Below the pieces are notes generated by a model, which saw nothing but the letters and a program-made list of their open reading frames with translations, had not been told where the DNA came from and made no database searches. DNA of 20,751 nt from a virus, in IMG/VR virus record IMGVR_UViG_3300025131_000528, positions 1 through 20,751 of that record; one strand, 5' to 3'. A program made the position numbers and the translations under genes. This document shows positions 3,001 through 20,102 of the stretch, one piece after another. Within the stretch, counting starts at the first letter, position 1. Each line of letters starts with the position of its first letter.

Positions 3001-6000
3001 TAAACACTCTTTGAATTTTTTTCAATTCGGGGGGCGACGTAGTGTCTACGCTACTCTTAAGTGGAACAATGTCACTAGCAAAAAATATTAATACATTTTC
3101 AGGAATCGTGGTCGAACCAGTTATAAAAATGGGACCAGCAGGATAAAGAGCATTGTAGGTAAATTGAATATTTTTAGTATCTGTAAAATTAACGCCGCCG
3201 CCAAAATCTTGTTTTCTCCTTACTTCCAGTTTATATGGTTTAGCCAACTTGCGCAAAACAAAGGTACTGCCATTATATCTGCTTGTTACGCCAGTACTTA
3301 CCACTCTTGCCAGAAGAGAAGCAGATTGATTATTATCATTATCAGCAGAAATTCTTATAGCGTCTCTATCCAAGTTGACATTAGCATCAGAGGACGCAAC
3401 AACAGTGTTGTTTTGGCGATTTGCTCGTTGGCGCCACCATTCAGAATTCTCTTTTTGAAGATTGGAAACGGGATGGTGATTAAGTCGCCAGTTATAGGTG
3501 AGTTCGTTAATCCCCAATACGGGGGCCCCGATATCATCACTGCGGGGGCGCAATGTGGGAAATATAGATTTATATTTATTTCTCTCCAATACATGACTTT
3601 CGATAGTATTCAATACGTCAGGAACAAAACCAGATGACGCCGGAACCAATTGGGCAATTATTTCAGTGAGCGCATCATCAAACCACTTATAATATGTAAT
3701 AAACTTTTCTACGTCTGTGACAGTCGTAACTCTTCTGAAAAAGATTTCTCTAAGCTTTTCTATGGTTTTATAGCGGTCACGATAGCGGTTAACTGGCTCC
3801 CCGATCACGTTGTTAAAATCGACAACGCCCGCAAAAAAAGTTAACATCTCTTCGGATATGGCGGCATATAGGCTCTTTTCCAATACATAGAAAAAGTTAG
3901 GCACCGTTTGAGATACCGGGAGGCCAAAAACCTTCTCCTTGTCCGATATAATTTGAACCATATCAGATGCTGCCGCCATTTCGGGATCTACAAATTTAAA
4001 CGAATTAACAAGTCGCTTATCTATAGAGGATGTGGAAGAGGCTTCAAACCCATATCCATATCCACTGTGTTGATAACCAGAAGTCTTCCCCAACCAACCA
4101 TAATTGTTTCTTAAGAGCACGGAACCCGAACTAACATCAGTTACATAGAAATTGCCAGTAGCGTCCGATCCTGTTACATTATCAAAATTCCAATTTAATG
4201 CCAAAGTATTCCAATTGGAAAGCTCATAGCCAGGATCGCCAGTATCCAGAGGAGAAATACTCTGATAGGAAGCAGAAATACCCGCATTATTAATATCTGC
4301 TGCATGCTGATCTAACGCGCCGTCTTCTACGTATTTTGTCCAATATTTAACACCTGAAAACAGTGTGTCCGACTTATGAATCACGGCGCCGGTAATATTA
4401 GTTCTCTGCGCGCCGGCGTACACCCTTTTGGGCGCTCTCAAGAAGGCGGATCCGGTCGCCAGGGTGATTGATGCCGAAACTACAAAACTATCTTGAACGC
4501 TTCCCAAGAGAGTATTGACCCCCCTAAAGATAACATCATAGGTATAGTCGCCTGAGCCTGTTACCATGCCGGCTACAGGATAAGTGCTAGGCTTCAACCT
4601 AACAGAAAGGTTCCACCGATCATTGTCGTAAACATTGAAAAACAAACTACTCGTGAGTTCCGGAAAGGGAAACGGAGTAACCGAAGATGATAATCTAAAA
4701 TATACATTTTTTGAATCTTCCGTGGGCTTTACCGCAACTACCTGGAAGTTAGCGCTATCCAGTGGCGAGTATTTTGTATCGGTGGGGTCAGTAGTGTTTG
4801 CTTGGTGCATCCCGAAAAGGGACGCTGTTAGAAAACGGCGGTTTACGGGATCTTCAGAATCGTCATAGCTCGGGAAAGTAATGTCTGCCTCGGCAGTCAT
4901 TCCGTATTTATCTTCAACGCCGGCCCAAGACATGCCGGAACTTCCAGAAATATAACCACTGGATTCGGAATTTGAAGGATCCGGGTATTGAAGAACTACC
5001 GCGGAGGTATTGTTTTTGTTATTAAAATTAAGAGAAGTCTTGTTTATTAAAGTTTGCTTTAAGTTATCTTTAAGGGGATAGGTCTGCCCGTCAGAATAGA
5101 CATTTAATTTAACGAGCCTATCATCAAGATTAAAACATCTCAGAACATTTCTGATTGATTTTTCTGTTCCCTTGTTTTTATAAATGTTAGCCAGATTGTT
5201 ATAGATATTTAAATATATCTTATTTTTTGTATCCGTTAAATCTCCCTCAAAAAGAGTTGTCTGATCACGATTCAGAAATGTTTCCATTACATCTGCGTCA
5301 ACAAACAATTCGGGCATATATAAGCCTAGCGATTCCGGGAGATAACGAGCGAAGGGGAGAGGCTTATAAGAGGCACTAGTATAAATCGGACTTTTAAATT
5401 TTGGTAGTGCGTTAATTTGCAGATATAATGTATCAAAATAAGCCCCCGCAATGTGACTCATTTTTTGGAGTTCTGATGTTTTACTCTCGTCTTGGGCGAT
5501 AACCCAATTGGGCATCAGCGATAGGAAAGAGCTATTATTATTTGAATCATAAAAAGATCCACTTTTTAATAAGTTTGTCTTAAGTGTGGCTACGCTTGGA
5601 TGAGTGGAGTAAATAATCGGGTCTTTATATTCGGTAGCACTTGCACTAGCGAGAACAATGGCCGATCCAGTGTTGCGTGAATTTGAGCCATATCCTGTCC
5701 ATGTACCATTGCTAATTCTTCCACTATAATCTAAAACAGTGCTATCAACACTTGCGGTTAAAGAGATACCTTCATTAAATTTATAATAAACGCCCAATGT
5801 TGCATTGCTAATATCTGTATTAGCGCCCCCCTGTATATCTGTAAACCAATAGCGCCCGATATCATTCGCCGTGCGGGACACTTTCCAAAATCTAAACTCA
5901 TCTAGTGAGCCGCTAAACTTGCCGGCTGATGCGGAGGCTAGGGTTCCAGATGGAGAGGTAATGAGCGACCCTATGCGCGCAATCATATTTTTTGACTTCA

Positions 6001-6952
6001 GTTCATTAAGGGAGCCGGCTCTCCTATTGGTATCATTTATAACACCATTTACATATAATTTTGTCCTAAAGCTATTGCTACCCGTATTTTCGAATTTAAA
6101 AGCATAATGCTGATAAGATTCCAACGAGGCTGTCGTCAGTCCGGAACCAATCGATTGTTGAAAAATACCGGAAGTTCCAGATTGGGCCGTAATTCTAAAA
6201 GGGCTTCCCGTTGCGGCGCCGGTTAACTCAATTGTAATTCTTCCGTAATCGGCGCTAGAGGTGGCTTCGTTGTTCCAAACATCAAGAACTACCTCTTTGC
6301 TTGAAGAGAGATTTGTAAAAGCTTCTTTTTTGAGCCAAAACTCAACCGTTACACCAGTGTCAAAATTTGATTTTAAGTTTGATTCGCGAGTTCCTACCCC
6401 ATAATCGCTTGGAAGTCCTTCCCTTGTATAAATATCCGTCTCATAAAGGTTCGCAGATTGAAATTTGGTATTGTAAGGGTTGTCAAAGGCGCTTGCCAAA
6501 GTGGTATACGAAGAAGAATGGGGTCCACCATAAAAGGAAATATATTCCAAGGTTTGTGGAAGACCATATCCATCTACTTGACTACCATCGCGGGATCCCC
6601 ACCCATCCGCGCTCATGAGAATATAGCCGTTTGTCCGCGGATACAAATTATCAAAAATATATTTTTCAATATTTAATAAATTATTATAAAATTCATTAAT
6701 TTCCGCGGAAGAGCCATCATACGGATAATAATCATGAATTCTCTCTATTGCGCTTTTATAGTATAAGTAAGCAGAACCATACTTAGCAAAATTGGCAGGC
6801 TCTGTCCAGTCAATCTGGGGAACAAAAGCTGCTTGTTTATCGGTAAGCGCCTTTACGTTTCGAGACGATTCAACATCTTGAAAGGCGTCTTTTTCCGTTC
6901 TATTGGAAAGATATTTTCTGCCTGTAGAGCCGAAAAGCTTTTTAATACTCAT
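1..6952 (-). CDS. Giant virion/baseplate-associated protein with LamG-like domain, 3' end beyond window
   Basis: One frame stays open from the ATG at 6952 to the left edge, at least 2317 codons. I read every triplet of the frame and found no stop. The start overlaps the previous stop by 11 bases (ATGAGTATTAA). Residues about 195-385 look like a LamG/concanavalin-A jelly roll: a TVEFWLK strand near 203, LYVNGV near 300, and SLDEFRFW near 350 followed by an RTANDIGRYWF stretch. Residues about 585-610 hold a charged helical motif, NIYKNKGTEKSIRNVLRCF. About 1100-1180 is rich in Trp, Arg and Asn, including SEWWRQRANR. The rest is Ser/Thr/Gly/Tyr-rich and beta-like, as in tail fibres and adhesins. 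Its place downstream of the gp25- and gp6-like genes is that of P2 gpI/gpH, so a fused wedge-fibre or receptor-binding protein is my inference. The gene is certain; the exact role is not. Confidence 0.9.
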   Translation of the reverse strand, partial: MSIKKLFGSTGRKYLSNRTEKDAFQDVESSRNVKALTDKQAAFVPQIDWTEPANFAKYGSAYLYYKSAIERIHDYYPYDGSSAEINEFYNNLLNIEKYIFDNLYPRTNGYILMSADGWGSRDGSQVDGYGLPQTLEYISFYGGPHSSSYTTLASAFDNPYNTKFQSANLYETDIYTREGLPSDYGVGTRESNLKSNFDTGVTVEFWLKKEAFTNLSSSKEVVLDVWNNEATSSADYGRITIELTGAATGSPFRITAQSGTSGIFQQSIGSGLTTASLESYQHYAFKFENTGSNSFRTKLYVNGVINDTNRRAGSLNELKSKNMIARIGSLITSPSGTLASASAGKFSGSLDEFRFWKVSRTANDIGRYWFTDIQGGANTDISNATLGVYYKFNEGISLTASVDSTVLDYSGRISNGTWTGYGSNSRNTGSAIVLASASATEYKDPIIYSTHPSVATLKTNLLKSGSFYDSNNNSSFLSLMPNWVIAQDESKTSELQKMSHIAGAYFDTLYLQINALPKFKSPIYTSASYKPLPFARYLPESLGLYMPELFVDADVMETFLNRDQTTLFEGDLTDTKNKIYLNIYNNLANIYKNKGTEKSIRNVLRCFNLDDRLVKLNVYSDGQTYPLKDNLKQTLINKTSLNFNNKNNTSAVVLQYPDPSNSESSGYISGSSGMSWAGVEDKYGMTAEADITFPSYDDSEDPVNRRFLTASLFGMHQANTTDPTDTKYSPLDSANFQVVAVKPTEDSKNVYFRLSSSVTPFPFPELTSSLFFNVYDNDRWNLSVRLKPSTYPVAGMVTGSGDYTYDVIFRGVNTLLGSVQDSFVVSASITLATGSAFLRAPKRVYAGAQRTNITGAVIHKSDTLFSGVKYWTKYVEDGALDQHAADINNAGISASYQSISPLDTGDPGYELSNWNTLALNWNFDNVTGSDATGNFYVTDVSSGSVLLRNNYGWLGKTSGYQHSGYGYGFEASSTSSIDKRLVNSFKFVDPEMAAASDMVQIISDKEKVFGLPVSQTVPNFFYVLEKSLYAAISEEMLTFFAGVVDFNNVIGEPVNRYRDRYKTIEKLREIFFRRVTTVTDVEKFITYYKWFDDALTEIIAQLVPASSGFVPDVLNTIESHVLERNKYKSIFPTLRPRSDDIGAPVLGINELTYNWRLNHHPVSNLQKENSEWWRQRANRQNNTVVASSDANVNLDRDAIRISADNDNNQSASLLARVVSTGVTSRYNGSTFVLRKLAKPYKLEVRRKQDFGGGVNFTDTKNIQFTYNALYPAGPIFITGSTTIPENVLIFFASDIVPLKSSVDTTSPPELKKIQRVFKVQHGRDWEDGLGYSNVKSTYAFPFNIFSSSLTTGYNKDVVEKVTGGIEITNLHNDVYGPMMEVPLQGPFSEFAVGGHQSRHIALNTGTDNCTNRPEAWKLLLGTVTASTPDVTGALGMVGADYPWPVTSDYPASASEKAVYYRDFVAKRPVNIRNIKSTTGSVLGNYTQNWQVVSTVGAYSNPSHFINNQPSLPSQITETPSASQGRSILDVHRSVRNHFQFIPDYSVAYLTGSANRSVIIGRFSAPGGIETMGIGYLDVRAAEMSVYNALPYRNLSVIKPSQGPSGSISETPNPPLLGQGTTGIRVSDINGQDFGLRAHLARHAARFGRDSFSVTDPGASYDQAPAMFKINRNTKHLIKSASTGYYSASQYDNFNIQHQIPRSDRQYAWVTASLAPGSTAARYYGYAPTQGPQAGLYSSSAGYTAYFNYVTASDVVGYGPGMGGGSPRALKQPTSRLNIFVHDPVDIIGGAPNTMGYSLTASNLDYRNTELLAMPPVIFEGNTNLKVNYFNALMSHRGNTLGWTWKGARNGDHPILRKHRNSNKLTVVDKSTGIIKSYRLAPASTRGRPVVANLDINGNSMTVKATHNNERVYFNETSLDDLQYESSMVNITPFNQIIRLVRYNPSYTFNWIQYSENLFPSLKNAYLSRSLGRTGFDNKFWRDSNAQRVAVGANILNSFGASVSQSCWPLDAQENFLTRTGPALLNAGSPYVDLISSGAAGELQNNYVMSHTGAAGGALPARSLRPGALYARKHILSSFRSVASPSGIPIPQTGSLSQPFLGSEAIDAYAGEALWEADSQAGIVVKSGSSVMFQATASAPWFNSYDDFKADLKLMAKDYSIIPEFRISEHVEDYVKYGLFNRGKLDTFDIPGTDINSSTASFYKDYSNSEFMSAFSRVRRTTRVPATEIKLVCNAAIRLNPYKGFYPAQRTLDLINQFSRSYGGGFVTNVGGGTPAQPLNGRLRPLAQALFAPGVLYNSIKSGIAVDYPVITDKTKLT

Positions 6953-8480
6953 ATTCTTCTACCCTAAACTTAAATATTTCAGGCTGTTCGACCCACGATA
7001 CCAAAGCTGCATCATAAAAAGCAAATTTAAATGCATACATATATCCCGGCTGGAGAAGATTCATGGCAAGATCGAAATAATTACCTGATACATCATACGA
7101 CATTTGTGTGTGCAAATCGGAGCCGGTTCCATAAGGAATTGCTTCAAAGCCGTCGACAGCCCTAAACACTCGATAAGATGCACTTAAAATTGTTGTACTC
7201 TCTGGTGTTGCATTTGCTACTGTATAAATAGTTGGGCTCCAATTTTTGTTTCGAACGTACAGATTAAATCTCGCCGTTTCGTCGCTTCGATATTTTCTTT
7301 TTAGGTTGGTGATATTTAAGTAATATACTGGCTTGGAAACAGTTTGGGCGGCACTCAAAACAATAGGTGTGATGGAGCCAGTAAAATATTCCGTGGCAGT
7401 GCTGTCGCTGTGCCATACATCATAAAGTGTCGTAAGGGGGGTGCTGGCGGCCGTAATTGCCATTGATGCAGTATAAATCCCGGTGGAACTATATCCTCCA
7501 GTAATATTTAACTTTCCATCATAAAGTACAAGCTTTGAGCCACTAGGGGCTGAATTATTAGCGGACCCAGAATAAAGGCTTACCAAAATATTTCCGGTGT
7601 CGATACCAGGAATATTGGTTAATCTTCCCCTCACGTAGTTATAAAGATAAATGGTGTTTAAATTATCAGCCGCCGGCGCCAACGAGCTACTATAATAAAA
7701 ATCGCCGCGGCTGTCTTTGACTGCCGAATCCCAACGTGCCTCAATAACTGGACGCTTAAAGAAGAACTGCGATCCTCTGGCGAAAAAACGTTTTGTGTAA
7801 TAAGATTTTGTGGCGCCACTCACATTGTTGATTACGCTACCACTATTTTGTCCGGTTGAACTAGAGAAATATGCCTCATAACTAGCCGACAAACGTACCC
7901 CGACGCCATAATTCTCAAATTTACCGCCGGCGGATCCTGTAATCCAATCTTCCACTAATTGAGTAATATCAATTTCAAGATCTTCTAATCCGGTACTAAA
8001 CGTTTGTGTGTATGTTTCTGAAGAGGCTGATAGGTAGTCGCCGCCCACGCTTGTCCATGGGGCGGTATTTGATGCGCTCATCCAGTTTGCGCCCGTGTTT
8101 CCCTTGGTTAAGTCTTTATAATTTTCCAGATCTAAACCAACGCCCTCTTGCCATGATTGAGAAACTGGCTGGACTACTAATTTATAATCTCTTGGAACTG
8201 TTTTGGAATGCTCGGCATTAAACAGCCGAAGGTAAAAACTCATACTACCGCTGGCAGGAATTTTGTTATTTGTTCGATCTGATGAAATCGTTGATACAGG
8301 AAATTTAGTAAGAATTCTGGAAAGCTCTTGAGAACTTGTGGTCTGCCGGCCATAAATTGAGAAAATTTCTGATACATCCGCTTCACCCATATTGGCGCCC
8401 GTGCCGCGAGTTACCAAATCCGGTTGGAATGCGTTTACAATTGTAGTATCTGCATCTGCTTTATATCTTTTTATTGCCAT
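6942..8480 (-). CDS. Structural protein with DNRLRE-like beta-sandwich domain (512 aa)
   Basis: Probable virion protein; exact role unknown. Residues about 5-255 follow the pattern of DNRLRE/CBM96-type carbohydrate-binding beta sandwiches: a DADTTI start, a SMSFYLRLFN strand near 79-88, the SQSWQEGVGLD segment at 108-117, NTGANW near 128-133, and LEIDITQLVEDWITG at 168-182 followed by NYGVGVRLSAS. It then continues with a RFFARGSQFFFKRP stretch near 231-243 and more Ser/Thr-rich beta sequence to an acidic end. The start codon shares one base with the gp6-like stop (TAATG), and an AGGAA element lies about 12 bases upstream, so translation is probably coupled. The domain call comes from pattern recognition by eye, so I am moderately sure of the fold and much less of any ligand. 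A wedge-to-fibre connector or a receptor-binding protein is plausible from its place between gp6 and the giant LamG protein. Confidence 0.85.
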   Translation of the reverse strand: MAIKRYKADADTTIVNAFQPDLVTRGTGANMGEADVSEIFSIYGRQTTSSQELSRILTKFPVSTISSDRTNNKIPASGSMSFYLRLFNAEHSKTVPRDYKLVVQPVSQSWQEGVGLDLENYKDLTKGNTGANWMSASNTAPWTSVGGDYLSASSETYTQTFSTGLEDLEIDITQLVEDWITGSAGGKFENYGVGVRLSASYEAYFSSSTGQNSGSVINNVSGATKSYYTKRFFARGSQFFFKRPVIEARWDSAVKDSRGDFYYSSSLAPAADNLNTIYLYNYVRGRLTNIPGIDTGNILVSLYSGSANNSAPSGSKLVLYDGKLNITGGYSSTGIYTASMAITAASTPLTTLYDVWHSDSTATEYFTGSITPIVLSAAQTVSKPVYYLNITNLKRKYRSDETARFNLYVRNKNWSPTIYTVANATPESTTILSASYRVFRAVDGFEAIPYGTGSDLHTQMSYDVSGNYFDLAMNLLQPGYMYAFKFAFYDAALVSWVEQPEIFKFRVEEYEY

Positions 8481-10276
8481 TAGACGATTTTTCCTATAAT
8501 ATCAACAGAAGGATATTTTATTTCAAAAACAGTGTTAGCCGGCGCTATCAAATAGCTACCATCAGGAGAAATATTTGAATCAATATCAAATTCTGTACTG
8601 GCATACGTTGCACCAGTTTTGTTGGTTATCTTTACGTTTGAAACATCCAATATCCCCGTAACTCCGTTAAGCGCGGTATATATGTCGCTGATAAGGAGCG
8701 CTTCTCCAATATAAAATTTGGTGCTAAAATGACTCGAAAGTGCGGACATAGCCGCATCAAGTAAGGAGTATTTATCTGCACCCGAAGCGGGCTTCATAAC
8801 AAATTCAATTCCAAGATTAATAATATAGGCATCTAAAATGTCCACCGTGTCATTAATCATTCTATATTCATTTAACCATGTTTTTAAATTATTTTTAATT
8901 GTTGAATTCGTCGTGATTAATTTTCCAAATTTATCCTCTGAAATTACATACATGTTTAGATTTCTTTTGCTCGAAGAGGCATCGCGCTGGCACGAAACCC
9001 GAGAAACAGCCCCAAATTGGGATGCCATTCTATAAGCAAGATTTTCATAATCTTTTTGTGTTACTGCGCGATTCTGTGTCGGGAAAGTATCCGTTATTCT
9101 TTGTTTTAATTCGGCGGTAGTGGGAGCGGACGTGTCTCCCGTAATCGGTAACTCATTAGACACCTCTAAAGACGATATCACGTTATTGATTGTTGTAGTT
9201 ACGAGGGTGTCTGCATTTTCAAAATCCACTAAGGCGCTCTGAACAAAAGAGAGTTGACCGGTCGAAACACTAGAATTTGCTGGATTCGTGGCGCGATAAC
9301 TTACAGTAAGCGTGGTATTTTGAGGAACAATGCCAAGAAGTTCATTTTGATGGAGCCTAGTTGGGTCAAAAGTTGTATCGGTTACGTAATCTTTACCAAA
9401 TACATTAGCCGCCACACTCCCCGGGTCGGCCACAACATTTGACGATCCACAATCGCCACTTCCAAATTGCAAAGTAGCGCTATTTTGATCTTGGTCGAGC
9501 AGAAACTTTCTCGCTACCACATACGGCTTCATCACCGAGGGAACATTATCATTTTTATAATTATTGTTTGCCACCTCTTTGTAAATCACATCTTGCGCTA
9601 GATAATCTACTTCAAAATATTCATTCCCTTCTGAATCCACAACAGAAATGATCTCAGAAACATTGGGATCCGCTATTGTCACCTTCTTAAAAGCTTCGTA
9701 TGCCCCGATAGTAATCTCCTCGCGACCGAAATATCCCGATACAACGTTACCATAAGCTTTAATCGCAAATTGAGATGGGGCGCCAGTTCCCGGATCATTC
9801 ATAGCAACTACTACTGGATTTTGAGGATCTCCAAAGTCTACATTTTCTGTTAAAACAAAATTCAAGCCCGTAGTAGATGTAAATTTTGAACCGCGCTTAA
9901 GGAGGGGAACATACTTTGAATCTGGGCCCAATCCCGTTGCAGAAGCCGGAATCATAACATAAAGCGCCACCTGTCCATATGTCGATGGGCGCCCTGTATA
10001 TTTGTACCCCAAAGCCTTCCCGGTGCGCAGTACATTATCGTATTCGAAAGCCGTGTTCAAGAAAGATTCGTTGACGTTGTAGTCACAATAAAAAGACAAC
10101 TGATCGCCCACATACGCAACAGCATCTATCATCAACGAACCAAAAGACGCCTCGCTGAAGTCTTGAAAGGTGTTGGGATAGAGTCGCTCTGCCACCCCCA
10201 TGAGATCTTTACGAATACTTTCATAATCTCTATGAGTATAATCAATTGGAACCGTTGTTTTTTTATTGCTGGCCAT
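8480..10276 (-). CDS. Baseplate wedge protein, T4 gp6 / P2 gpJ-like (Baseplate_J family)
   Basis: Core component of the contractile-tail baseplate. In T4, gp6 dimers link the wedges into the inner ring and transmit the signal for sheath contraction. The protein is 598 residues, close to T4 gp6. The N-terminal part has the typical DYESIRKDLM helix and the SEASFGSLMIDAVAYVGDQL stretch at 41-60, which matches the usual gp6 start where a short N-terminal helix region leads into an 'open the interior' motif. Near residues 395-420 is the family hallmark NRAVTQKDYENLAYRM followed by FGAVSRV. The C-terminus ends in FEIKYPSVDIIGKIV, as in gp6-type proteins of T4-related phages. The start at 10276 is fixed by a strong AAGGAGAA Shine-Dalgarno seven bases upstream. 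It sits directly after the gp25-like gene, the same order as gpW-gpJ in P2, which strongly supports the call. Confidence 0.9.
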   Translation of the reverse strand: MASNKKTTVPIDYTHRDYESIRKDLMGVAERLYPNTFQDFSEASFGSLMIDAVAYVGDQLSFYCDYNVNESFLNTAFEYDNVLRTGKALGYKYTGRPSTYGQVALYVMIPASATGLGPDSKYVPLLKRGSKFTSTTGLNFVLTENVDFGDPQNPVVVAMNDPGTGAPSQFAIKAYGNVVSGYFGREEITIGAYEAFKKVTIADPNVSEIISVVDSEGNEYFEVDYLAQDVIYKEVANNNYKNDNVPSVMKPYVVARKFLLDQDQNSATLQFGSGDCGSSNVVADPGSVAANVFGKDYVTDTTFDPTRLHQNELLGIVPQNTTLTVSYRATNPANSSVSTGQLSFVQSALVDFENADTLVTTTINNVISSLEVSNELPITGDTSAPTTAELKQRITDTFPTQNRAVTQKDYENLAYRMASQFGAVSRVSCQRDASSSKRNLNMYVISEDKFGKLITTNSTIKNNLKTWLNEYRMINDTVDILDAYIINLGIEFVMKPASGADKYSLLDAAMSALSSHFSTKFYIGEALLISDIYTALNGVTGILDVSNVKITNKTGATYASTEFDIDSNISPDGSYLIAPANTVFEIKYPSVDIIGKIV

Positions 10277-10292: not shown

Positions 10293-10703
10293 TTAAATTG
10301 CTAATTCTAAAATATCACGTAAATTAATGCTGGGTATTGAATATTCAATTGCAATATATAGTTTATTAGAATCCTGTTCGGAATCGTCAAATATAATATT
10401 ATCTATCGTAACGGCCGATAAATATTGTGCAACTTGTTCTCTTATCTTAAATTCGATTTCCGCATAGACGCCGGCATCAAACCTTCTAAATAAATAACTC
10501 TCCAATCCCACACCAAAAGTTGGTTCCATTACTCTTTCGCCCGTATGAGTTAACAAAATCATCGTTAAATTTTGCGCAATCATTGGTTCAAGTGTTGTTA
10601 TTAATTCCCAGCCATCAGCCGAACTATTGGTCAAGGGAAGAGCGACAGCCAGGGCAGTTGTCCCACCAGAACTGCCGTTAGAATCACCGTTGCAACTACT
10701 CAT
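10293..10703 (-). CDS. Baseplate wedge protein, T4 gp25 / P2 gpW-like
   Basis: Small wedge protein of 136 residues, the usual size of the gp25-like family. It forms the wedge core bundle with gp6- and gp7-type proteins and starts sheath polymerisation. Residues 49-72 carry the family signature: LLTHTGERVMEPTFG followed by VGLESYLF. It then has a long helix (about 80-96, EIEFKIREQVAQYL) and a beta hairpin leading to a short hydrophobic end. The first 20 residues are Ser/Gly-rich and probably disordered, an unusual extension in front of the core. The start at 10703 has AAGGTAAC about eight bases upstream. It lies 27 bases after the 2341-residue gene and 16 bases before the gp6-like gene, so the three are almost certainly cotranscribed. 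Family assignment is by recognised motifs and gene order. Confidence 0.88.
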   Translation of the reverse strand: MSSCNGDSNGSSGGTTALAVALPLTNSSADGWELITTLEPMIAQNLTMILLTHTGERVMEPTFGVGLESYLFRRFDAGVYAEIEFKIREQVAQYLSAVTIDNIIFDDSEQDSNKLYIAIEYSIPSINLRDILELAI

Positions 10704-10730: not shown

Positions 10731-13700
10731 TCAATCTTCATTTTCGCACGGTTCTCCATCCGCATTAAATGGATTAGAGCGTAATTTTCGTCGTTTCCAC
10801 CATGGCATTAGCCTTTCTCCTGGTCGTGGACTCATTCGCCCTTTCAATTCAGCCATAAAAGCTTTACCGGGACTCTCTCCCTTACCGAATGTAGCGAAAT
10901 CTCTGGAATTATAATATGATTTAAACAATCTTTTGATTTGCCGTTTAGATTTCGTCAAGAGATCCCGGTCCCATTGATCATAAGTTTTAAAGATTGTCGG
11001 CCGGTCTCTATCTTCATATGCTGCCCAGCCCGGGTTTCCGTAAACATCAACACTCTCTACATATGTATTCCCGTTCTTCTCGGCAGTATTTATATCCACA
11101 TAGCGACCCGGCTTATCGTTGGTGCTACCTTCAAGGTTGGAAGACACCCATGCCCAGGTTGCGCCCTTTTTCACCGTTACTTCGCCAATTGATGACAAAA
11201 ATGCCATATCATTATAGATCGCTGTCGTGGCGGTTATCTTAGAAAGAGGGAAAATATATCTGCATATTAATTTAAATTTGTCATCTTCTTTTAGAAGGTT
11301 TATCAGACACCAGAGCAGCTTGCTATTTGCCTCAAGGGTTTTAAACTCACTAAGAGGCAAGTCTAAAGCATCAACTTCAACCGAAGTCATTTCATATTTT
11401 ACTCCGTCAATTGCCATAGAAAACATTAAGCCATAACGAACACCAAGCTCTCCTTCTACACCCACAACATTACCATCTTCGTCTTCAACGAACCTCAATT
11501 CATTTCCCTCTGGTCCCGGGTATACATCAGAAATATTTTGAGTCAAGTCTTCATTGGAGGATATTTGATATGTGGCTAATGAAGGCTTCATTTTAACGCC
11601 ATCAATTTTGATGTATTTCTCCAAGCCAAAGGGGCGAGTGTCGCCCGGTTGGGGGACAGTCGACTCATATTCGACAACATCACCTATGTCAATACTAGTT
11701 TGATTTACCAGGGGGGCTAAGATATCTTGCTGGTAGCCATATTCTTCTGTGCCCGTATCTGGATTAGTATAGACCCCTTCTCCTAAGTCTGTGGGGCCCG
11801 CCAAAAATACACTGGTGCCTTCGTCATCGATATGGACTACGTATTCTCCCACATATTCTTGTCCGGAGTAAAAGCCGTTTTCAAGATCAAGATCTTCGGC
11901 AACAACAAATTCTGCGCCGGCAGTATAGTATGGAATATCATCCGGCTCTGGTTCAGCGGGAAGATTTGGATATGTATATTTTATTTCATGATCAATGTCT
12001 AGGTTATCACACCCTTGCGTAAAGTTTTCAAGCAAATAATAATCTAAATCAAAAACATCGGGCACCATTTCCACAACATCCAAATTGCTTATAAACTTTT
12101 CACCCATATAATTCAATTGTTCGATTACCAACTCTTTCAAAACCAATTTAGCATCTTCTTCTGTTGCCTTAACTGCTTCTAAAATTTTATCATATCTGTA
12201 TTTTTTCAATTGGAAAAATCTGCGTTTTGTTTCATGTAAGCCATAATCTTCCTCCCTGTCGGCTACAGAAGGTCGGTCATAATTTTCCATCATATCGTTC
12301 AAGCGCGTTAGTGCTCTTACCACATGGGGAGGAGCTTCAATATCCTCATCTTCAAGGCGCCGGGCGTACATTTGCACAGATTGTTCTAGAAATCCATACC
12401 AAAATTTATCATCTCTTGGATTATCTGCTCGGGCGCCGGTGAGATTAGATTCCGAAGCATCCCTAAAGCTTTCTTCCATATTCTCCACCACATACGATGC
12501 GTATAGGGAACTAAAAACTTCTGGAAACTTGGGAGAGAATTTTGTAAAAGTTGCCATCGATTTAATAAAATGAGCACTAGCATAAATACGAACGGCTGCC
12601 ATTATTAAGCCCTGTAGACCAGCCACCGCAGAGCGCTCAAGAATTCTACCATAAGGCCACTCTACCGCACAATCGGGGTGCTGTTGAAGCCTCTCATCTT
12701 GGGGAACAGATGGATATACTTCATCCATTTTATCTTGAATTTGTCCAAAATCAACTAAATCGCTTTTTTGAGGTTTGCATGGGCTCATCTCCGGAAACAA
12801 CACATCAATAAACCCAAGCCACCCCTTGTTCATAAGTGGTTTGATATATAAAGGAGGGCTCATATAATTTCCCCCATACATTATGGGATCTAAATAAAAG
12901 ATTCGATTTTCTCCCTCTTTCTCTTCATTCTTTATCAACCACTGCATGCGGCTTATACCCAATATCTGATCTCTATTCTTGAGTTTGCGTAAGTTTCCAT
13001 CTTCATCTTTGATTTCCGCTTCCCCGTAAGATGTTCCACCCGGAGAGGCTGTCTGTCCGGTGTCAACGACATATTCAACCTCATCCCACGTCAAGCTATC
13101 AAAATCAGCACCATAATTAAATCCTGGCTCATTTGCGGCAACTTCTGCGATAATTGTATTTGTTATGTCAGACATAAAAGCGTCATAACGTTCTTTGATT
13201 TCCTGTTGAGAAAACGGTGCGCCGGAATCGTTAAGCATTTCATGTAGCAAAATGACGGGTGGAGTATAATTGTGGACCGAAGTTTCAAACATGGACATAA
13301 ATGCCGGATATTTTTCGAGGGTCTCTATTGATATCTCATCTAGAGTATTGTCTACGGAAACAAATTCATATTTTAAATCCACAACAACTTTTTCGCCCTT
13401 GTCTTCTGTCACTTTTTTTAATACGTTTCTCACCGATGGTATCGCAAGAGCCGCCAACTTAACATCGAGATTCGTCTCCGGATTGCTAAACTCATATATT
13501 TTTATGCGAGAGAGGCCGACGGCGTTCTTGATTTTCGCGGTGGTGGCGCCGCCGCTGGATTGCTCGGATCCAGCGGCATATAGCGAAGTTTCACAACTTT
13601 GCATCTCATCCCAGGTGCCGCTGTCCGTATCAACGTTGAGGCTTGTTTTAGTGTCTTCGTCGGCGGATTCAGTGGCATATAGCGAAGTTTCATAACTTTG

Positions 13701-16700
13701 CATCTCTTCCCAAGTACCCTCCATCGACTCAACATCTTCTGGTGGTTCATCTTTGATTAAATCTGCATTATAAAATTGTAGCTGGAATCCCCAACTGAAG
13801 CCTTCCTGTCCACCCTCTGGACCAGTTTTCATTCCTTTGGCATTATCTTCAAATAATAACTCGAAATCGGGAGTACCCTTGCGCGCCTTTTTAGTAAAGT
13901 TTACAACGCCGTCTTCCCATGCAGGATCGATTTCAACATTGTAGCCAAAATCAGGGAGTGATAATATATTAATAGCTTTTCTCAAACCTCCTCTTGTGTA
14001 ATCATCCTTATCTTTTACAATCTTAACATCATCTAGAAAATCATTGTTAGAATTATAACTAACTGTCAAATTTGATATTTGTTCTTGAAGCCATTCGGCA
14101 ACAAATTCAGGATAAGCCCCCCTTTGTCTCCAAATTTTGCCATCGGCGCTTCCAACTTCTTCTGACTCCGCAGAGTCGTCGGTATAAAAGTCAACGTAGT
14201 TTTTTGACGGCCAGCCATTGGCTGCTTTTCTCTGGTGTACAGTAAGAGGAGATGCCAGCGTGTCGGAGAGAATCATATTCATCATTCCCCAATTTTTCAT
14301 AAAGGGTCCATTTCCCAACATATCAGTCGAAAAGTCTGATTTAAGTGCTTCTAACTGATTGCCCAAAACGGATGTTGTAGCCGCTATCGATTCCGCCGGC
14401 TCAAAAGGAAGGATTCCATTATCACATCCCGGATCTGATACGAGGGGAGGCATATTACATGCCACATGATTATCAAAATTCTGGAACGGTTTAACGAGTT
14501 CTTCTAAGTTATCCTTTATTCCCTGACGATCACACAGTTTCTTGATTTGTTCCGGGCTAGCGCGATCTTGCATTAGCGTAGCCCGCAATTCACAAAATTG
14601 TTCAATTTGCTCAGGGGTGGCACACAAAGTAGGATTGGCGGGTACCATTTCATTTACCGGGGTCGAATCTACCAATCTCTTAATATTATCTTTAAAGTCT
14701 AGCGGCATCAAATTACCTATATTTTTAAACATGCTTTTGACGCCAGTTTCACTATGGAGGGCGGGGAATTGAGGGTATTCGTATGACAAAAAGGTTGCAA
14801 TAACCTGGGTAGCTTCGCCGGCATCTTGTCCCAACACTAACTTATTCACTTCGTCTGAGGTGGCCACAGATGAAATCCCGCCGACCATTTCGAGAACCAA
14901 TTCTGAATCAGCCATGGCGGCGCCGGCGTCCCCCATTAATGCCACCAAATCCACTATTGTTTGATTTACTGTATCATCATCTACATCTGGTCCACAAATT
15001 GACTCTTTAATTACGCTAGCCAAGCCCGTTCGGTTGCCTGTAGCTAATGCCGCTGTCACATCTCCAACAAGTTCAAGTGTTTGACAAATCGCAGTTCCAA
15101 GTAATTCGCACAATTTAATAAATATTTTGGCTACTATTGCGATTAGCAACTCTTTAATCACTTGTGTTGCTACCTGAAAAAGAATCCACATAATGTCCTT
15201 CCAATTCATTGTAATGTAAAAAGGATTTTTAAAAGCAATTTCAGGCCACACAAAATCTCTACCGCATGTCCACGGGAGTTCAAAATCCTTAATAATGTCT
15301 ACAAAACTTGGATCCATAAAAGGGGGGCGCGGGCATGCGGTGGTGGCAATAATATTCGCAATAAGGGCCGCTCCAGGGAATGTATTTAACTTATCGACCA
15401 ATTCCAGTTCTTTACCCTTGAAGTTTTCTAATAAAGCCTTAGCATATGCTTCTCGAACGGTACTTTCGCTCAACGAAGATACATCCCCGGCGGCCGCTTC
15501 GGTCCAGCTATCGCCTCCATCGCTTGAAGGTGCTAATGTTCTTTGTGATTGTTCCCTCTGACTAGTTACTTCAGTTTCTGTCATTCCGCCATATCCACTG
15601 GGATCGTATTCGGTCTTCGCGTTCTCCCAGGTGCTCCCCTGGAGGGTGCTCTCTTTAAATGCATCCCAGCCCTGCCAGCCGCGTTCCTCAGAAAAAATCC
15701 CGGCTTCATCGGGAAGATCTTCGGCGCCATCCACATAGTTTCCAATCTCTCCGTCCGAAGCCTCTGCCATATCGGTATTGCTATCTTTAAAAAGATCCCC
15801 ACTCTCCAAGTTTTCTTTAACTAAAGCATCGAGTTCGGCTTGTTGATCGGCGGATAAACCAATAAAAAGTTTATCAAAGTTATCAATCGACATGCCCTCA
15901 AGGGTTGCCTTTAGAATGCTAGCTAGTGCCTCTTCGAGAGTAAGACCGCCAGTAAGACAACGGATTACACCAGCGAGCATATCCAAAAGTCCACATAGTT
16001 TTAATCTATCCCATACATCTCCTACTTCGGTTCTCCATGGCCCGAGGCCGAGGTCATATTCCTTGTTGAGAAAGGGGCCCTTACCGGCCGATCCCATCCA
16101 ACTACACAAAAAATCAAACATCGTGGGGTTTGCCTGCACATATTCATATGCCTGCACTTGGGCTAAATCATAAACAGTATCCGGCATTCCGGAATTGACA
16201 CCTTCCCCTGTCATATTAGATGGTCGGGCGCCGCCCGCATCAGCAAGATGTTGCATTTCTGCCGCAGTTGGAATGTGACTTCCTCGCTTGAGTCCCATCG
16301 TCTCGCGCCACTCCTTTACATCTTCAGCACTATTAGAACACAACGCCTCGTGAAACCTGTAAGCAATGGCATCTCCGAGACCAAAGGCGGTGTTCAAAAT
16401 ATCTTCGCCAAGTTGCTTGCCTTCTGCCAGCAAAGACTCGCCGACACAAGCAGCTACAGAACCAGCCAGGCTTTCTTCGTATAAGTCGTCAGGGTAAGTC
16501 GATATATAAACTTCGGGAAATGTATATTTTACTAAAAATTCTGTCCATTCCATAGGAACTCTGGCAACCAAGTCTATTTCCATTTCCACCAGGCGTGCCA
16601 GATAAGCCATGGCGGTTACATCCCGAAATTCCTCATACCGCTGCGCCATCTCGGGACCCGCAACAACGATAGCATCATAGGGGCACGCTATAGTGTAAAT

Positions 16701-17756
16701 CACTATCTTTTTTATCCGATAGTCATAGGTAAAAGTAAAAATAATTTCACCAACTTTTTTCTTTGTACTGCGAAATGCCGCGGCGTCTAAAAAATAACCT
16801 TTGTTGTTTATGTGTGCTTTTAAATTAGTCCAGAGTTTCGCCATCAATGAAGCGTCACGTCCCCAACCCCGATCACCATAATTCTCTACATTGAACACCA
16901 CGGGCTTTCCATAATCTCCGGGGTTTAAATACAAAATGTTAGATGATTCTATCGCACGAAAAACATCTAAATAACGCTTATACAGGTCGAGCCCCTTTCT
17001 AATGCGAATGAGCTTGATTTCCAAGTCGCCAGGCTTAAAAGAAACTTCAATATCAGTGGTATCTACTTCTTCTTCTTCATCAGGGGGAACGTACTCGGCA
17101 ATACTTTGCAAAACTTCGTAAGGAACAGAATACAATAACTTTAAGCGAGACATTGCGCGAGGGGCTAAATCCCAATCAGTATATTCCAAATATGCCTTTA
17201 TTGTGTTTCGCGCGGTCTCGGACGTGTCTTTATTGTAAGCCTCCAAGAGCGCCAATGCTATTTCGTCGGCATATTCATCAAATATCGCGCTCGGAATTCC
17301 TCCATTTTTTTCGTCTGTTGCGGGACAGGCGTCGGTAGCTGCTATCGATTCCAGTTGTCCCGGATCGAGGTCTTCAGGTGGTGTGTCACCCGGTACGTCT
17401 TTCGGGTCAGATGTGGGTTCTTCATCGAGCCAACCTGACTCGAAAGACGTATCGCTCTCCGAACCTCTAGTTTCGCGGCGGGCTGATGCCACTCCGTCAG
17501 CGCTGCTTCGCTGTTTCGTTTCTTCTTCGGGTCCAGTCGTAGTTCGTGGAGTGCCCTTGGTAATCTGATATTTACAAATCTTTTCATTTAAAAAAGGTTC
17601 CCACTTGCGCCTATTCTGCCATATGGGAGTGATGGCGCACGGGTTGGGTATGCAACCGGGACAAAATTCCTCGTTTACTTCTGGAAATTCTCCACAAACG
17701 TCAATTAAGCCATCACCATTTGCGTCTTGATATTGTAAAAATTTTGAATCAGCCAT
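10731..17756 (-). CDS. Giant putative baseplate/virion protein of unknown family (2341 aa)
   Basis: I do not recognise a named family. The N-terminus has a calcium-loop-like DANGDGLIDVC (residues 10-20), then a Cys/Pro cluster FCPGCIPNPC, then an acidic Pro/Ser/Thr-rich linker (about 70-145) that looks disordered. Most of the rest mixes long helical stretches with acidic loops and contains about thirty cysteines. Residues about 854-890 form a strongly hydrophobic stretch starting DIMWILFQVATQVIKELL. Two internal repeats occur: a 20-residue period at 1046-1085 and a 33-residue period at about 1346-1396. The C-terminus is basic then acidic (WWKRRKLR, ending CENED). AAGG about nine bases before the ATG supports the start. 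Lying between the putative hub/spike genes and the gp25-like gene suggests a baseplate role, perhaps replacing gp7- or gp53-type proteins. A tape measure protein is a less likely alternative given its cysteines and acidic loops. The gene is certain; the function is not. Confidence 0.9.
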   Translation of the reverse strand: MADSKFLQYQDANGDGLIDVCGEFPEVNEEFCPGCIPNPCAITPIWQNRRKWEPFLNEKICKYQITKGTPRTTTGPEEETKQRSSADGVASARRETRGSESDTSFESGWLDEEPTSDPKDVPGDTPPEDLDPGQLESIAATDACPATDEKNGGIPSAIFDEYADEIALALLEAYNKDTSETARNTIKAYLEYTDWDLAPRAMSRLKLLYSVPYEVLQSIAEYVPPDEEEEVDTTDIEVSFKPGDLEIKLIRIRKGLDLYKRYLDVFRAIESSNILYLNPGDYGKPVVFNVENYGDRGWGRDASLMAKLWTNLKAHINNKGYFLDAAAFRSTKKKVGEIIFTFTYDYRIKKIVIYTIACPYDAIVVAGPEMAQRYEEFRDVTAMAYLARLVEMEIDLVARVPMEWTEFLVKYTFPEVYISTYPDDLYEESLAGSVAACVGESLLAEGKQLGEDILNTAFGLGDAIAYRFHEALCSNSAEDVKEWRETMGLKRGSHIPTAAEMQHLADAGGARPSNMTGEGVNSGMPDTVYDLAQVQAYEYVQANPTMFDFLCSWMGSAGKGPFLNKEYDLGLGPWRTEVGDVWDRLKLCGLLDMLAGVIRCLTGGLTLEEALASILKATLEGMSIDNFDKLFIGLSADQQAELDALVKENLESGDLFKDSNTDMAEASDGEIGNYVDGAEDLPDEAGIFSEERGWQGWDAFKESTLQGSTWENAKTEYDPSGYGGMTETEVTSQREQSQRTLAPSSDGGDSWTEAAAGDVSSLSESTVREAYAKALLENFKGKELELVDKLNTFPGAALIANIIATTACPRPPFMDPSFVDIIKDFELPWTCGRDFVWPEIAFKNPFYITMNWKDIMWILFQVATQVIKELLIAIVAKIFIKLCELLGTAICQTLELVGDVTAALATGNRTGLASVIKESICGPDVDDDTVNQTIVDLVALMGDAGAAMADSELVLEMVGGISSVATSDEVNKLVLGQDAGEATQVIATFLSYEYPQFPALHSETGVKSMFKNIGNLMPLDFKDNIKRLVDSTPVNEMVPANPTLCATPEQIEQFCELRATLMQDRASPEQIKKLCDRQGIKDNLEELVKPFQNFDNHVACNMPPLVSDPGCDNGILPFEPAESIAATTSVLGNQLEALKSDFSTDMLGNGPFMKNWGMMNMILSDTLASPLTVHQRKAANGWPSKNYVDFYTDDSAESEEVGSADGKIWRQRGAYPEFVAEWLQEQISNLTVSYNSNNDFLDDVKIVKDKDDYTRGGLRKAINILSLPDFGYNVEIDPAWEDGVVNFTKKARKGTPDFELLFEDNAKGMKTGPEGGQEGFSWGFQLQFYNADLIKDEPPEDVESMEGTWEEMQSYETSLYATESADEDTKTSLNVDTDSGTWDEMQSCETSLYAAGSEQSSGGATTAKIKNAVGLSRIKIYEFSNPETNLDVKLAALAIPSVRNVLKKVTEDKGEKVVVDLKYEFVSVDNTLDEISIETLEKYPAFMSMFETSVHNYTPPVILLHEMLNDSGAPFSQQEIKERYDAFMSDITNTIIAEVAANEPGFNYGADFDSLTWDEVEYVVDTGQTASPGGTSYGEAEIKDEDGNLRKLKNRDQILGISRMQWLIKNEEKEGENRIFYLDPIMYGGNYMSPPLYIKPLMNKGWLGFIDVLFPEMSPCKPQKSDLVDFGQIQDKMDEVYPSVPQDERLQQHPDCAVEWPYGRILERSAVAGLQGLIMAAVRIYASAHFIKSMATFTKFSPKFPEVFSSLYASYVVENMEESFRDASESNLTGARADNPRDDKFWYGFLEQSVQMYARRLEDEDIEAPPHVVRALTRLNDMMENYDRPSVADREEDYGLHETKRRFFQLKKYRYDKILEAVKATEEDAKLVLKELVIEQLNYMGEKFISNLDVVEMVPDVFDLDYYLLENFTQGCDNLDIDHEIKYTYPNLPAEPEPDDIPYYTAGAEFVVAEDLDLENGFYSGQEYVGEYVVHIDDEGTSVFLAGPTDLGEGVYTNPDTGTEEYGYQQDILAPLVNQTSIDIGDVVEYESTVPQPGDTRPFGLEKYIKIDGVKMKPSLATYQISSNEDLTQNISDVYPGPEGNELRFVEDEDGNVVGVEGELGVRYGLMFSMAIDGVKYEMTSVEVDALDLPLSEFKTLEANSKLLWCLINLLKEDDKFKLICRYIFPLSKITATTAIYNDMAFLSSIGEVTVKKGATWAWVSSNLEGSTNDKPGRYVDINTAEKNGNTYVESVDVYGNPGWAAYEDRDRPTIFKTYDQWDRDLLTKSKRQIKRLFKSYYNSRDFATFGKGESPGKAFMAELKGRMSPRPGERLMPWWKRRKLRSNPFNADGEPCENED
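13572..13719 (-). repeat. Imperfect direct repeat, two 49-bp copies 99 bp apart, inside the giant gene
   Basis: Copies lie at 13572-13620 and 13671-13719. They differ at 6 of 49 positions by my count. The start-to-start distance is 99 bases, an exact 33 codons, so the frame is kept. The encoded copies are GTWEEMQSYETSLYATES (about residues 1346-1363) and GTWDEMQSCETSLYAAGS (about 1379-1396). The high DNA identity suggests a fairly recent in-frame duplication. The segment is acidic and Ser/Thr-rich and may be an exposed linker. Confidence 0.85.
14502..14621 (-). repeat. 20-residue internal protein repeat, two units
   Basis: Residues 1046-1065 begin ATPEQIEQFCELR and residues 1066-1085 begin ASPEQIKKLCDRQ, an exact 20-residue (60 bp) period with aligned Pro, Glu-Gln-Ile and Cys. 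DNA similarity is low, so the duplication is old or is kept at the protein level. The pattern suggests two similar short helical hairpins, each with one cysteine. It lies within the giant 2341-residue gene. Confidence 0.6.
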
Positions 17757-17774: not shown

Positions 17775-18782
17775 TTAAGTGGAATTAACATTCCGACTCC
17801 AAACTGCGCGGGGTGCCTGTGCAGTTAAATATAAGCCTTCAAATTCAGTCATTGATTGTCGAAGGGTGTAGAGCGGGCTGCTACAAAAATTCATTCGGGC
17901 GGTGGCGTCTGCTCCCGTTGCTGCACTTAGTGGCGATAGCGCCGCACCCATGGCAGAGAAACATGTCGATGTTAACATTTCTGACTGAATCATGAGACCC
18001 ATAAGGTGATCTACTAATTCTGCCATCTTCGCCAGTGCATCTCTGGTGCGATAACCCAAAGCAATGGGCTGCAAATAAGTCTCCTCTTTCCCCGAAAGCG
18101 ACAGGTATCGTTTTCTTCCAATCTCATTACCAGCAATCAAATCAATTGTGGGGACGATCTCCAGCTTATTTCCAAAACTGTCTGTCTCGCCCTTGAATCC
18201 ATATCCCGTAACGCCCGCCATACCGCCAGTAACGATTTTTACTCCGGCGCGACCAATAATCCGCACCTTATCGGCTTTTACCGCGATGGCAGAACGTTGT
18301 GGTTCCACCCCATCTTTGTTGAATTGCTCCTCCCAAGGAGTTTGTACAATCCCAAAGTTTTTGTCGACTCTTGTTGAGCGGCTTATATAAATTCTCGCGG
18401 CATCAGCAGCAGGGCTATTGCCCACAAACATTCCATCGCAAGGACCGGCGCCTCCGTGTGAGGATGCCATGCGCCCAACAACCAAATCAATTGTATCGGA
18501 AATGGCGCCCTTCCCTCCTTCCCCGCTAACCTCTGTGCTTGGGCGATCTTGCCCCAACACAATATAGGCATTAGAATTTGAAATTATCTTCTCATTCCGT
18601 GCTGCATTAAAAGTTATGAATGGTGCAGGGGGGCTTGTGCCGGCTAGCCCGTCGCTAGCTAAATTGGCTGGGCGCCCGTTGTTAAGGATATCCTGTGGCA
18701 GAATAGGTGCCGCAGATTCTCCCGTTTCGCAATTTTTGAAAGCATCTTTGTTGAAGATCTTTCTATCTGGATTTTTTGCCAT
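17775..18782 (-). CDS. Putative baseplate/tail spike structural protein (335 aa)
   Basis: Probable virion protein; no firm family. The N-terminal ~90 residues are Pro/Gly/Asn-rich. Residues about 95-220 look like alternating beta strands: SDTIDLVVGRMASS, then ARIYISRSTRVDKNFGIV, then SAIAVKADKVRIIGRAGVKI near 164-183, then PTIDLIAGNEIG. Regular strands of this kind occur in beta-helix or prism domains of phage spikes such as the gp5 C-terminal domain. A helical segment follows at about 247-272 (RDALAKMAELVDHLMGLM). It lies between the putative hub peptidase gene (51-base gap) and the giant gene (18-base gap). Its place suggests that it supplies the spike part that T4 gp5 carries in one chain. 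The start at 18782 is preceded by AGGAAAAG. The spike assignment is an inference from strand pattern and position. Confidence 0.85.
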   Translation of the reverse strand: MAKNPDRKIFNKDAFKNCETGESAAPILPQDILNNGRPANLASDGLAGTSPPAPFITFNAARNEKIISNSNAYIVLGQDRPSTEVSGEGGKGAISDTIDLVVGRMASSHGGAGPCDGMFVGNSPAADAARIYISRSTRVDKNFGIVQTPWEEQFNKDGVEPQRSAIAVKADKVRIIGRAGVKIVTGGMAGVTGYGFKGETDSFGNKLEIVPTIDLIAGNEIGRKRYLSLSGKEETYLQPIALGYRTRDALAKMAELVDHLMGLMIQSEMLTSTCFSAMGAALSPLSAATGADATARMNFCSSPLYTLRQSMTEFEGLYLTAQAPRAVWSRNVNST

Positions 18783-18833: not shown

Positions 18834-20102
18834 TCACTGATTGGTGACCTCGGCCATGGTCGTGGCGATGGTGCTGGCGCCACCCGAGGGCACGGCGTAA
18901 TCTGATAAGTCGCAACCCTTGGCAGGATAAGTATCTAAAATGTTTTTGTTCCACGTCTCCGTGTCCGGATTCGTGGCGGCGTCGGCTTGATGTGTGGCGG
19001 CATCGCGCTGGGTACCGCCGCTTTCCCAGCCACTACCATAAGTAAGATGAAAGTGGGGACCGGTGGACTTGGTGGATGGATAATTATATTCATCTATCCA
19101 CTTAAATTCGTTGTCGGCGGCGTTCATAGATGCAAAAAGGTAATTCATGTACATCACATTCTCATCATCCACATATTCATTCTTGCGACCGTCATTGTAA
19201 TGACTACCCTGCACTAGCGGACCATCGGATGGGAATACGGAAATATCAAAAGCCTTTCCTGCTCTGTGATTTCCCCCTTCATGCCAGTCATCGTTACCTC
19301 CCCCTATCTCCACCCTAAAATTATTCGGCAGGTTATCAGCGAACTTCTGTTTGGAAAGCTCTTTCATAACATTCGCCAACGCCATGGCGGCGCCTTCCGT
19401 GATATCTCGACCGCCCTCAGACAGCCTGCCATGGCCACTAACGTCAAATCCATCTTTGGCGAGGGACTTCAAAAAGCATCGCAACTTATTTGCATTAGGG
19501 GTTTTTTCATCATCCACCCCAAAGGTTCCGGGGTTCCCCGACCCTCCTGTCAGCACGACCGGCTCCGAATTGCCGCCAAAAAGCCCCGCAAGGGAAGTGC
19601 AGTCAATGGCTTTTTTTCCTCCTTGTGAATTATATTTTCTTTTTTGGTTTATGCCCACTGCCCAGCCGCGTTCTAAATTAAAAGGCGCGTCGAGCCAGCC
19701 CGGATCCAAAAACACATTAACCCTATCATTTCTTTCAACAGATCCCTTTCCGCTATTGTCAAAAAAATCTTCGGTCAATATAAACTCAGTATGTTCTAAA
19801 ATTAACGCGGCTGTATAATGTGGACTCTCTGTCTCTCCCAGATCGCACGGATCAGGCAAAAACAAATGAGGTGAATCATCACCAAGAATTCTTCCTCGAA
19901 ACGCTTGGCGCGCCCACTTGGTAGCTGGTGTAGTTCCGGCTGTGGGCGCTTTGGGCCCTTGCTTGCCAAGCGCGTCGGCTTCTCCCTGTGTCAGAGTATA
20001 GCCGCTAGTCAAGGCCACCGCTACGAATTGATTAGTTTTTTGATATACATCCGGAAAGATCTTTCTGAGCCATGCTCTCTCTCTTGCTTCTTCTGCTGAC
20101 AT
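18834..20102 (-). CDS. Putative tail hub protein: OB-like domain plus LAS/M15-type zinc peptidase (422 aa)
   Basis: Probable hub component that cuts peptidoglycan during infection. Residues about 60-155 (FRGRILGDDSPHLFLPDP, then ERNDRVNVFLDPG) look like a small beta-barrel, compatible with the OB fold of gp5/gpV-type hub proteins. Residues about 225-355 carry the D-Ala-D-Ala-peptidase-like zinc site: H279 and D286 in NHRAGKAFDISV, with the 7-residue H-to-D spacing of M15 enzymes, and H350-x-H352 in GPHFHLTYG. Those residues match the LAS (lysostaphin, D-Ala-D-Ala, Sonic hedgehog) metallopeptidase layout. The usual Glu in an ExxH motif is not obvious; D337 or E338 is a candidate. The C-terminal ~65 residues are Ala/Asp/Thr-rich. 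The start at 20102 follows the previous stop with no gap and has CAGGGGGA seven bases upstream. Peptidase fold fairly sure; OB domain tentative. Confidence 0.88.
   Translation of the reverse strand: MSAEEARERAWLRKIFPDVYQKTNQFVAVALTSGYTLTQGEADALGKQGPKAPTAGTTPATKWARQAFRGRILGDDSPHLFLPDPCDLGETESPHYTAALILEHTEFILTEDFFDNSGKGSVERNDRVNVFLDPGWLDAPFNLERGWAVGINQKRKYNSQGGKKAIDCTSLAGLFGGNSEPVVLTGGSGNPGTFGVDDEKTPNANKLRCFLKSLAKDGFDVSGHGRLSEGGRDITEGAAMALANVMKELSKQKFADNLPNNFRVEIGGGNDDWHEGGNHRAGKAFDISVFPSDGPLVQGSHYNDGRKNEYVDDENVMYMNYLFASMNAADNEFKWIDEYNYPSTKSTGPHFHLTYGSGWESGGTQRDAATHQADAATNPDTETWNKNILDTYPAKGCDLSDYAVPSGGASTIATTMAEVTNQ

Follow-up and report, generated by a model that had tools for sequence, protein, structure and literature searches.

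A giant protein encoded between the spike-like and gp25 genes marks a lineage of contractile-tailed phages

Introduction

A small conserved core is believed to be common to the baseplates of contractile tails in phages, pyocins, and type VI systems, and within it the spike and gp25 genes are often neighbors. The baseplate of Agrobacterium phage Milano, where the spike is gp27 and BW1, BW2, and BW3 are gp28, gp29, and gp30, has proteins stabilized or linked by disulfides (PMC10811340). In A-1(L), the small LysM protein gp16 is the bridge between hub and wedge (PMC10966104). Here, we analyzed the whole of a viral record of 20,751 bases (IMGVR_UViG_3300025131_000528; hereafter the window), in which a preliminary description had placed a 2341-residue protein of unknown family between a spike gene and a gp25-like gene. 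It had regarded such a protein as unusual for a T4-type operon, and had suggested that one chain may replace several small baseplate genes (gp53, gp7, gp8) or add an outer structure to the baseplate.

Results

Gene order in the window

The giant ORF is present and intact at 10731..17756, with an ATG start, 2341 codons, and no internal stops; like all window features given below, it lies on the minus strand. The order on this strand is a 102-aa gene, a 422-aa gene (18834..20102), a 335-aa spike-like gene directly upstream of the giant (17775..18782), the giant, gp25 (sheath initiator or baseplate wedge 1, 10293..10703; PF04965, E 4.5e-13; phrog_261, E 1.5e-17), gp6 (baseplate J wedge protein, 8480..10276; phrog_219, E 4.2e-18), a 512-aa gene in the gp7/gpI position (6942..8480), and a LamG-like gene that runs off the window (2-6952, with 2317 aa or more inside the window). 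The latter is huge in the related 195-kb contig G001, with 3967 aa (33279-45185; L156/L157). The window gp6 gave full-length tblastn matches to Microcystis phage Mel-JY01, LR756508, and Flavobacterium phage immuto.

The 335-aa gene is called spike-like by its position and appearance only. Its profile found a match upstream of the giant in 105 of the 150 fetched loci; in the gp6 retrievals described below, 12 of 14 giant loci had a match in one and 21 of 37 in the other. Its similarity to the spikes of the sister lineage is uncertain (hhalign E 0.01, probability 4). For the 422-aa gene, 80 loci have a profile match ahead of the giant. This gene carries an M15/LAS-peptidase-like motif of the H..D / HxH type (NHRAGKAFDIS ... 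GPHFHLTYG), has no Pfam match, and keeps the motif at just 54-72% conservation across its family.

A large family absent from the databases

We scanned viral contigs for relatives with an alignment of 5 sequences (223 loci) and with one of 10 divergent members (253 loci). Relatives of the giant are thus encoded on at least 223 viral contigs, which we take, from their sample identifiers, to be mostly marine. Fifty-four full-length members (stop-to-stop ORFs, a few of them cut at a contig end) have 2061-2461 aa and are collinear end to end at a mean pairwise identity of 40%. Conservation is even along the protein except for variable stretches around residues 80-150, 480-520, 680-760, and 1340-1440, and gp25 lies directly downstream in 147 of the 150 fetched loci. 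The ORF is real, intact, and strongly constrained.

The protein has no match in Pfam, PHROG, NCBIfam, or the PDB sequences, and tblastn against 50,697 phage records gave none at E up to 10. Profile searches of the entire records of immuto, Mel-JY01, LR756508, and Atu_ph07 did not find it either. Profile searches of PDB sequences gave nothing for queries A1 and A3, and only chance-level matches for A4 (E at least 0.06). A weak hhalign similarity of the N-terminal half to a 371-aa gene of immuto (E 0.021) was dropped after inspection. The assignment to an unknown family is thereby upheld, and the giant belongs to a highly diverse, previously undescribed family whose proteins range from about 1,700 to more than 2,860 residues.

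A first scan of genome contigs found no member of this family. The second scan, with gp6, gave a single MAG contig, which carries it: DTRI01000081.1, from a Flavobacteriales MAG, encodes at 83-4568 the C-terminal 972 residues of a giant (40.5% identical), gp25, and gp6. This low-coverage contig within the MAG, weak as host evidence, and the Flavobacterium host of immuto together suggest, if weakly, that the giant-bearing phages infect Bacteroidota.

The giant is present throughout one lineage and absent from its sister

To keep the giant from biasing the estimate, we used gp6 as the sole query for fetching loci. The window gp6 gave 14 loci with 6 kb or more ahead of gp25, all of which have a giant; an alignment led by a more distant gp6 gave 37 such loci, again all with a giant, as a single ORF in 33 and as two ORFs in 4. 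The slot between spike and gp25 therefore encodes a giant product (at least 1600 aa in total) in 51 of the 51 loci with room for it, a count that includes redundant contigs such as L338/L339. Forty-seven are single ORFs of 1701-2864 residues, some of which run into the end of the contig or of the fetched stretch and are hence longer. The other four are split into ORFs of 1485-1781 and 504-629 residues.

The loci related to Mel-JY01 and immuto (sister loci) differ. In 21 such loci, every ORF between spike and gp25 is shorter than 1600 aa, and the gp6 tree fully separates giant-bearing from sister loci, with a support of 1.0 on the dividing branch. In contigs retrieved with the Mel-JY01 gp6 placed first, the gene directly before gp25 is small (mostly 112-202 aa, 176 aa in Mel-JY01 and 139 aa in immuto); its product starts with an amphipathic helix and carries a [TK][RK]DYSxLMK motif at the C-terminus. 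The profile of this gene recognizes 72 sister loci as well as Mel-JY01 and immuto, and is found in none of 150 giant loci and nowhere in G001. Between the spike and this small gene, sister loci encode hydrophobic coiled-coil proteins, hydrolase-like proteins, or nothing, and three of them hold 971-1388 aa there. The genes in this slot are very different among L185, L204, L241, and L255 (hydrolase-like; coiled coils of up to 1388 aa), which suggests a hot spot where accessory genes of the tail tip are exchanged or gained.

These loci also bear on what the giant may replace. The 512-aa gene is homologous to the genes that follow gp6 in Mel-JY01 (386 aa) and immuto (369 aa; hhalign probabilities 97 and 95, respectively). 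Since it fills the place of gp7 after gp6, the giant does not replace gp7. Neither sequence nor fold comparison linked the giant to gp7, gp53, or gp8, and Pfam gave no LysM match, at cutoffs of E 0.1 for the window protein and E 10 for ten relatives. The gene truly absent from the giant loci is a different one, the small helical protein before gp25 in the sister lineage. Hence, the proposal of one chain for several baseplate genes holds in part: it is supported because four related loci use two ORFs and because one or two small genes occupy this place in the sister lineage, but a replacement of gp53, gp7, and gp8 in particular is not supported.

Shared cores and split forms

The window-family profile misses most of the other giants, and its matches are graded, from E 1e-136 or better (L328, L345, L279, L307) down to 1e-20 to 1e-13 (L337, L308, L310, L331, L347). 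We iterated profiles seeded with window residues over the loci of the gp6 retrieval. Core A (residues 925-1150, 14307..14984) was found in 55 giant loci, core S (residues 1632-1830, 12267..12863) in 62, and core B (residues 2128-2200, 11157..11375; NSKLLxCLINxLKxDxKFKLxxxYIFP...AIYNDMxFLxSIGE) in 58, and none of the three in a sister locus. Iterated profiles can drift, an explanation disfavored here because the order A-S-B is fixed and the gene place is the same. The giant of L284 (1938+ aa), which seemed unrelated by direct profile, is matched weakly by the iterated core S (E 1e-4). From these sequence comparisons, the giants appear to form one superfamily with the shared cores A, S, and B in this order.

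Where the giant is split (L342, L357, L364, L368, and the partial L341), the first ORF holds both A and S and matches the first 1.4 thousand residues of the one-ORF protein of L362. The second ORF has a hydrophobic C-terminus and matches the C-terminal part of the same protein. Since the two ORFs (1481-1780 and 500-626 aa in this comparison) match parts of a one-ORF form, they probably act in one complex. Comparison by hhalign of the C-terminal parts of other giants with the hydrophobic sister genes gave no convincing match.

Features and predicted structure of the protein

The preliminary description had noted Ca-loop-like, Cys-rich, hydrophobic, and repeat features, and the first three are borne out by the relatives. 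The N-terminus (residues 1-75, 17532..17756) contains the Ca-loop-like segment DANGDGLIDVCG at residues 11-22, a cluster of cysteines (C21, C32, C35, and C61), and then PFLNEKICKYQIT. Residues D11, D19, and C21 are kept in 81-82 of 82 relatives, and the segment looks like the Ca-binding loop of EF-hands or thrombospondin type-3 repeats; no Pfam model matched it. Each of the four cysteines is at least 98% conserved among 82 sequences, and 20 of the 29 cysteines of the protein are at least 97% conserved among up to 107 sequences. The hydrophobic feature is one conserved hydrophobic or amphipathic helix around residues 850-905 (15042..15209), given by Kyte-Doolittle values and by the AlphaFold2 model, where it is 43 residues long. 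In 35 of 54 relatives, the hydrophobicity peak of the whole protein over 19 residues falls in this helix; the best Kyte-Doolittle 19-mer averages 1.85. Of the repeat feature, there is a single two-copy direct repeat of 55 nt (89%; 13565-13619 and 13664-13718) in a variable loop, around residues 1345-1400, where the alignment shows a gap for most relatives. The protein as a whole does not have a repeat architecture.

Residues 1940-2015 (approximately 11712-11939) correspond to a motif, YVGYYHVHxDxxGxxxYMxGxxHxxxxHDxLxP, whose histidines are conserved in most relatives and degraded in the window copy; a similar His-rich motif terminates the giant of L347. It is a candidate metal site, and no match to it was found in the other proteins of the first 88 loci.

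Structure prediction, which had been proposed as a check, was done with AlphaFold2 on two halves. The N-terminal half, modeled with relatives on residues 1-1199 of L003, is fair (pLDDT 72.5, pTM 0.67), with low confidence over the first 40 residues, and the C-terminal half (window residues 1142-2341) is good (pLDDT 82.8, pTM 0.85), a compact mixed alpha/beta fold and not a continuous helix. Neither half model matched a PDB fold at E <= 0.001. Searching predicted viral structures with the C-terminal half alone gave one strong match, BFVD A0A516M7H3 (Foldseek E 5.8e-30, TM 0.52/0.57 over 1313 alignment columns), and weaker ones to A0A1B1IUZ9 (E 1.3e-3) and A0A516MAR9 (E 0.014). By sequence and PDB fold, the giant is thus neither a known tape measure nor another known protein of equal length.

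The phage type

The 195-kb contig G001, which carries a relative of the giant, encodes a tail sheath (PF04984), a tail tube (phrog_4542), and a T4-type gp26-like protein (PF12322), and has an 883-aa gene in the tape-measure position. By its terminase, the nearest cultured relatives are immuto and Mel-JY01, together with the uncultured LR756508 phage. Considering these genes, the giant belongs to a contractile-tailed phage and is not its tape measure. Elsewhere in G001, otherwise unrelated genes near 8560, 10213, 91508, 92110, 92666, and 95470 (L155-L164) share the N-terminal motif MKxLxENWRxFLxE, possibly a capsid-targeting sequence by analogy with T4 internal proteins. By eye from their N-termini, this contig also has a GroEL-like 526-aa gene (136381-137961; L161 16381-17961) and a DNA polymerase III alpha-like gene with a PHP domain (145801-149232; L162 5801-9232; 1143 aa).

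Discussion

Our best reading is that the giant is a lineage-defining virion protein that would bridge the spike/hub and the wedges. Because it is inserted exactly at the junction of spike and wedge 1, across the whole lineage, and is sometimes split side by side, we infer that it may join the central spike/hub to the wedges as a subunit. We give a probability of about one half to the giant being a structural, multi-domain, Cys-rich tail-tip protein of the virion, packed between the spike/hub and the gp25-gp6 wedges. The link between hub and wedge is backed by the giant's fixed place, its conservation, and its presence across the lineage, by the shared cores and two-ORF variants, and by the confident compact fold of the C-terminal half. 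Other core tail functions (sheath, tube, gp26-like protein, and tape-measure position) are already assigned to separate genes. The protein would then be part of the particle, contact both spike and wedges, and secure the baseplate, whose inner part would be enlarged. Its invariant cysteines may stabilize it through disulfides or metal, and could cross-link as in Milano. Operon position does not prove particle position, and two features count against a bridge: the hydrophobic helix and the hydrophobic C-termini of other giants fit a membrane-active protein equally well, and a pure scaffold has no obvious need for a Ca-loop-like motif.

The strongest rival, which we hold to be rather unlikely, is accordingly a penetration protein on or beside the spike that enters the envelope at contraction, with hydrophobic helices that insert in or perturb the membrane, replacing the hydrolases and hydrophobic coiled coils of the sister lineage. 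Besides the conserved helix around 850-905, it would explain the hydrophobic C-terminal segments of other giants, e.g. PGMIYLALLLIDAI, and the Kyte-Doolittle 19-mer of at least 1.6 in 48 of 69 slot proteins, in line with the hydrolase-like or hydrophobic proteins in the sister slot (the Mel-JY01 gene is annotated as a chitinase). However, whole-length conservation over 2-3 thousand residues seems excessive for a cargo protein, no C-terminal hydrophobic segment is present in the window family, and no catalytic motif or enzyme family was found.

A receptor-binding or fiber-carrying protein of the outer baseplate would fit the size and the extracellular-type features (Ca-loop-like segment, many cysteines), but we regard it as improbable: conservation is even, with no hypervariable C-terminal tip, no fiber, lectin, or repeat family was matched, and the tail-fiber-type genes (the LamG protein and later genes) lie downstream. 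There is similarly little in favor of an assembly factor, chaperone or scaffold, absent from the mature particle; the displaced small sister gene does resemble, by its sequence, a helical protein of the assembly type, yet the great size and strong constraint of the giant would be unusual in a transient factor. Great length, helices, and a hydrophobic segment are also those of a tape measure, an identity that we consider highly implausible, since in G001, Mel-JY01, and immuto the position after the tube and gp26-like genes is occupied by other long genes and the C-terminal half is predicted to be compact rather than one continuous helix.

Under the reading as a hub-to-wedge protein, one may tentatively go further and picture a large group of ocean myophages whose contractile tails have baseplates of a new class, where giants of about 260 kDa, in one chain or two, form an extra ring from hub to wedge and evolve so fast that most are unrecognizable by single-sequence search. 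A whole lineage has placed a giant, apparently new fold exactly at the spike-gp25 junction. If it forms a structural ring, this would be a new way to build or lock a baseplate, and if it penetrates membranes, a new way to cross an envelope. The giant also provides a marker by which a widespread, as yet unisolated phage group can be recognized.

Among known proteins, A0A516M7H3 has the same fold across the C-terminal half, but it is 14% identical and is itself an unnamed, uncharacterized viral protein. T4 gp7 (baseplate wedge 3) is likewise a large baseplate protein, but it sits directly after gp6 and is linked to the giant by no PHROG, Pfam, or PDB fold match; the giant is indeed unusual for T4-type operons. 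T4 gp53 and the LysM bridge of A-1(L), gp16, resemble it in the proposed role as a link from inner hub to outer wedge, whereas the giant is over ten times longer, lacks LysM, and has another gene place. Immuto and Mel-JY01, the nearest cultured relatives by TerL and gp6, share with the window the order gp25, gp6, a DNRLRE-like gene, and then a long gene, but have no giant, and its profile matches nothing in either genome. Milano, finally, has many cysteines in its baseplate proteins, as does the giant, where their role is putative; unlike the window, it has the ordinary set gp25-gp30, with no giant between spike and wedge 1 (PMC10811340).
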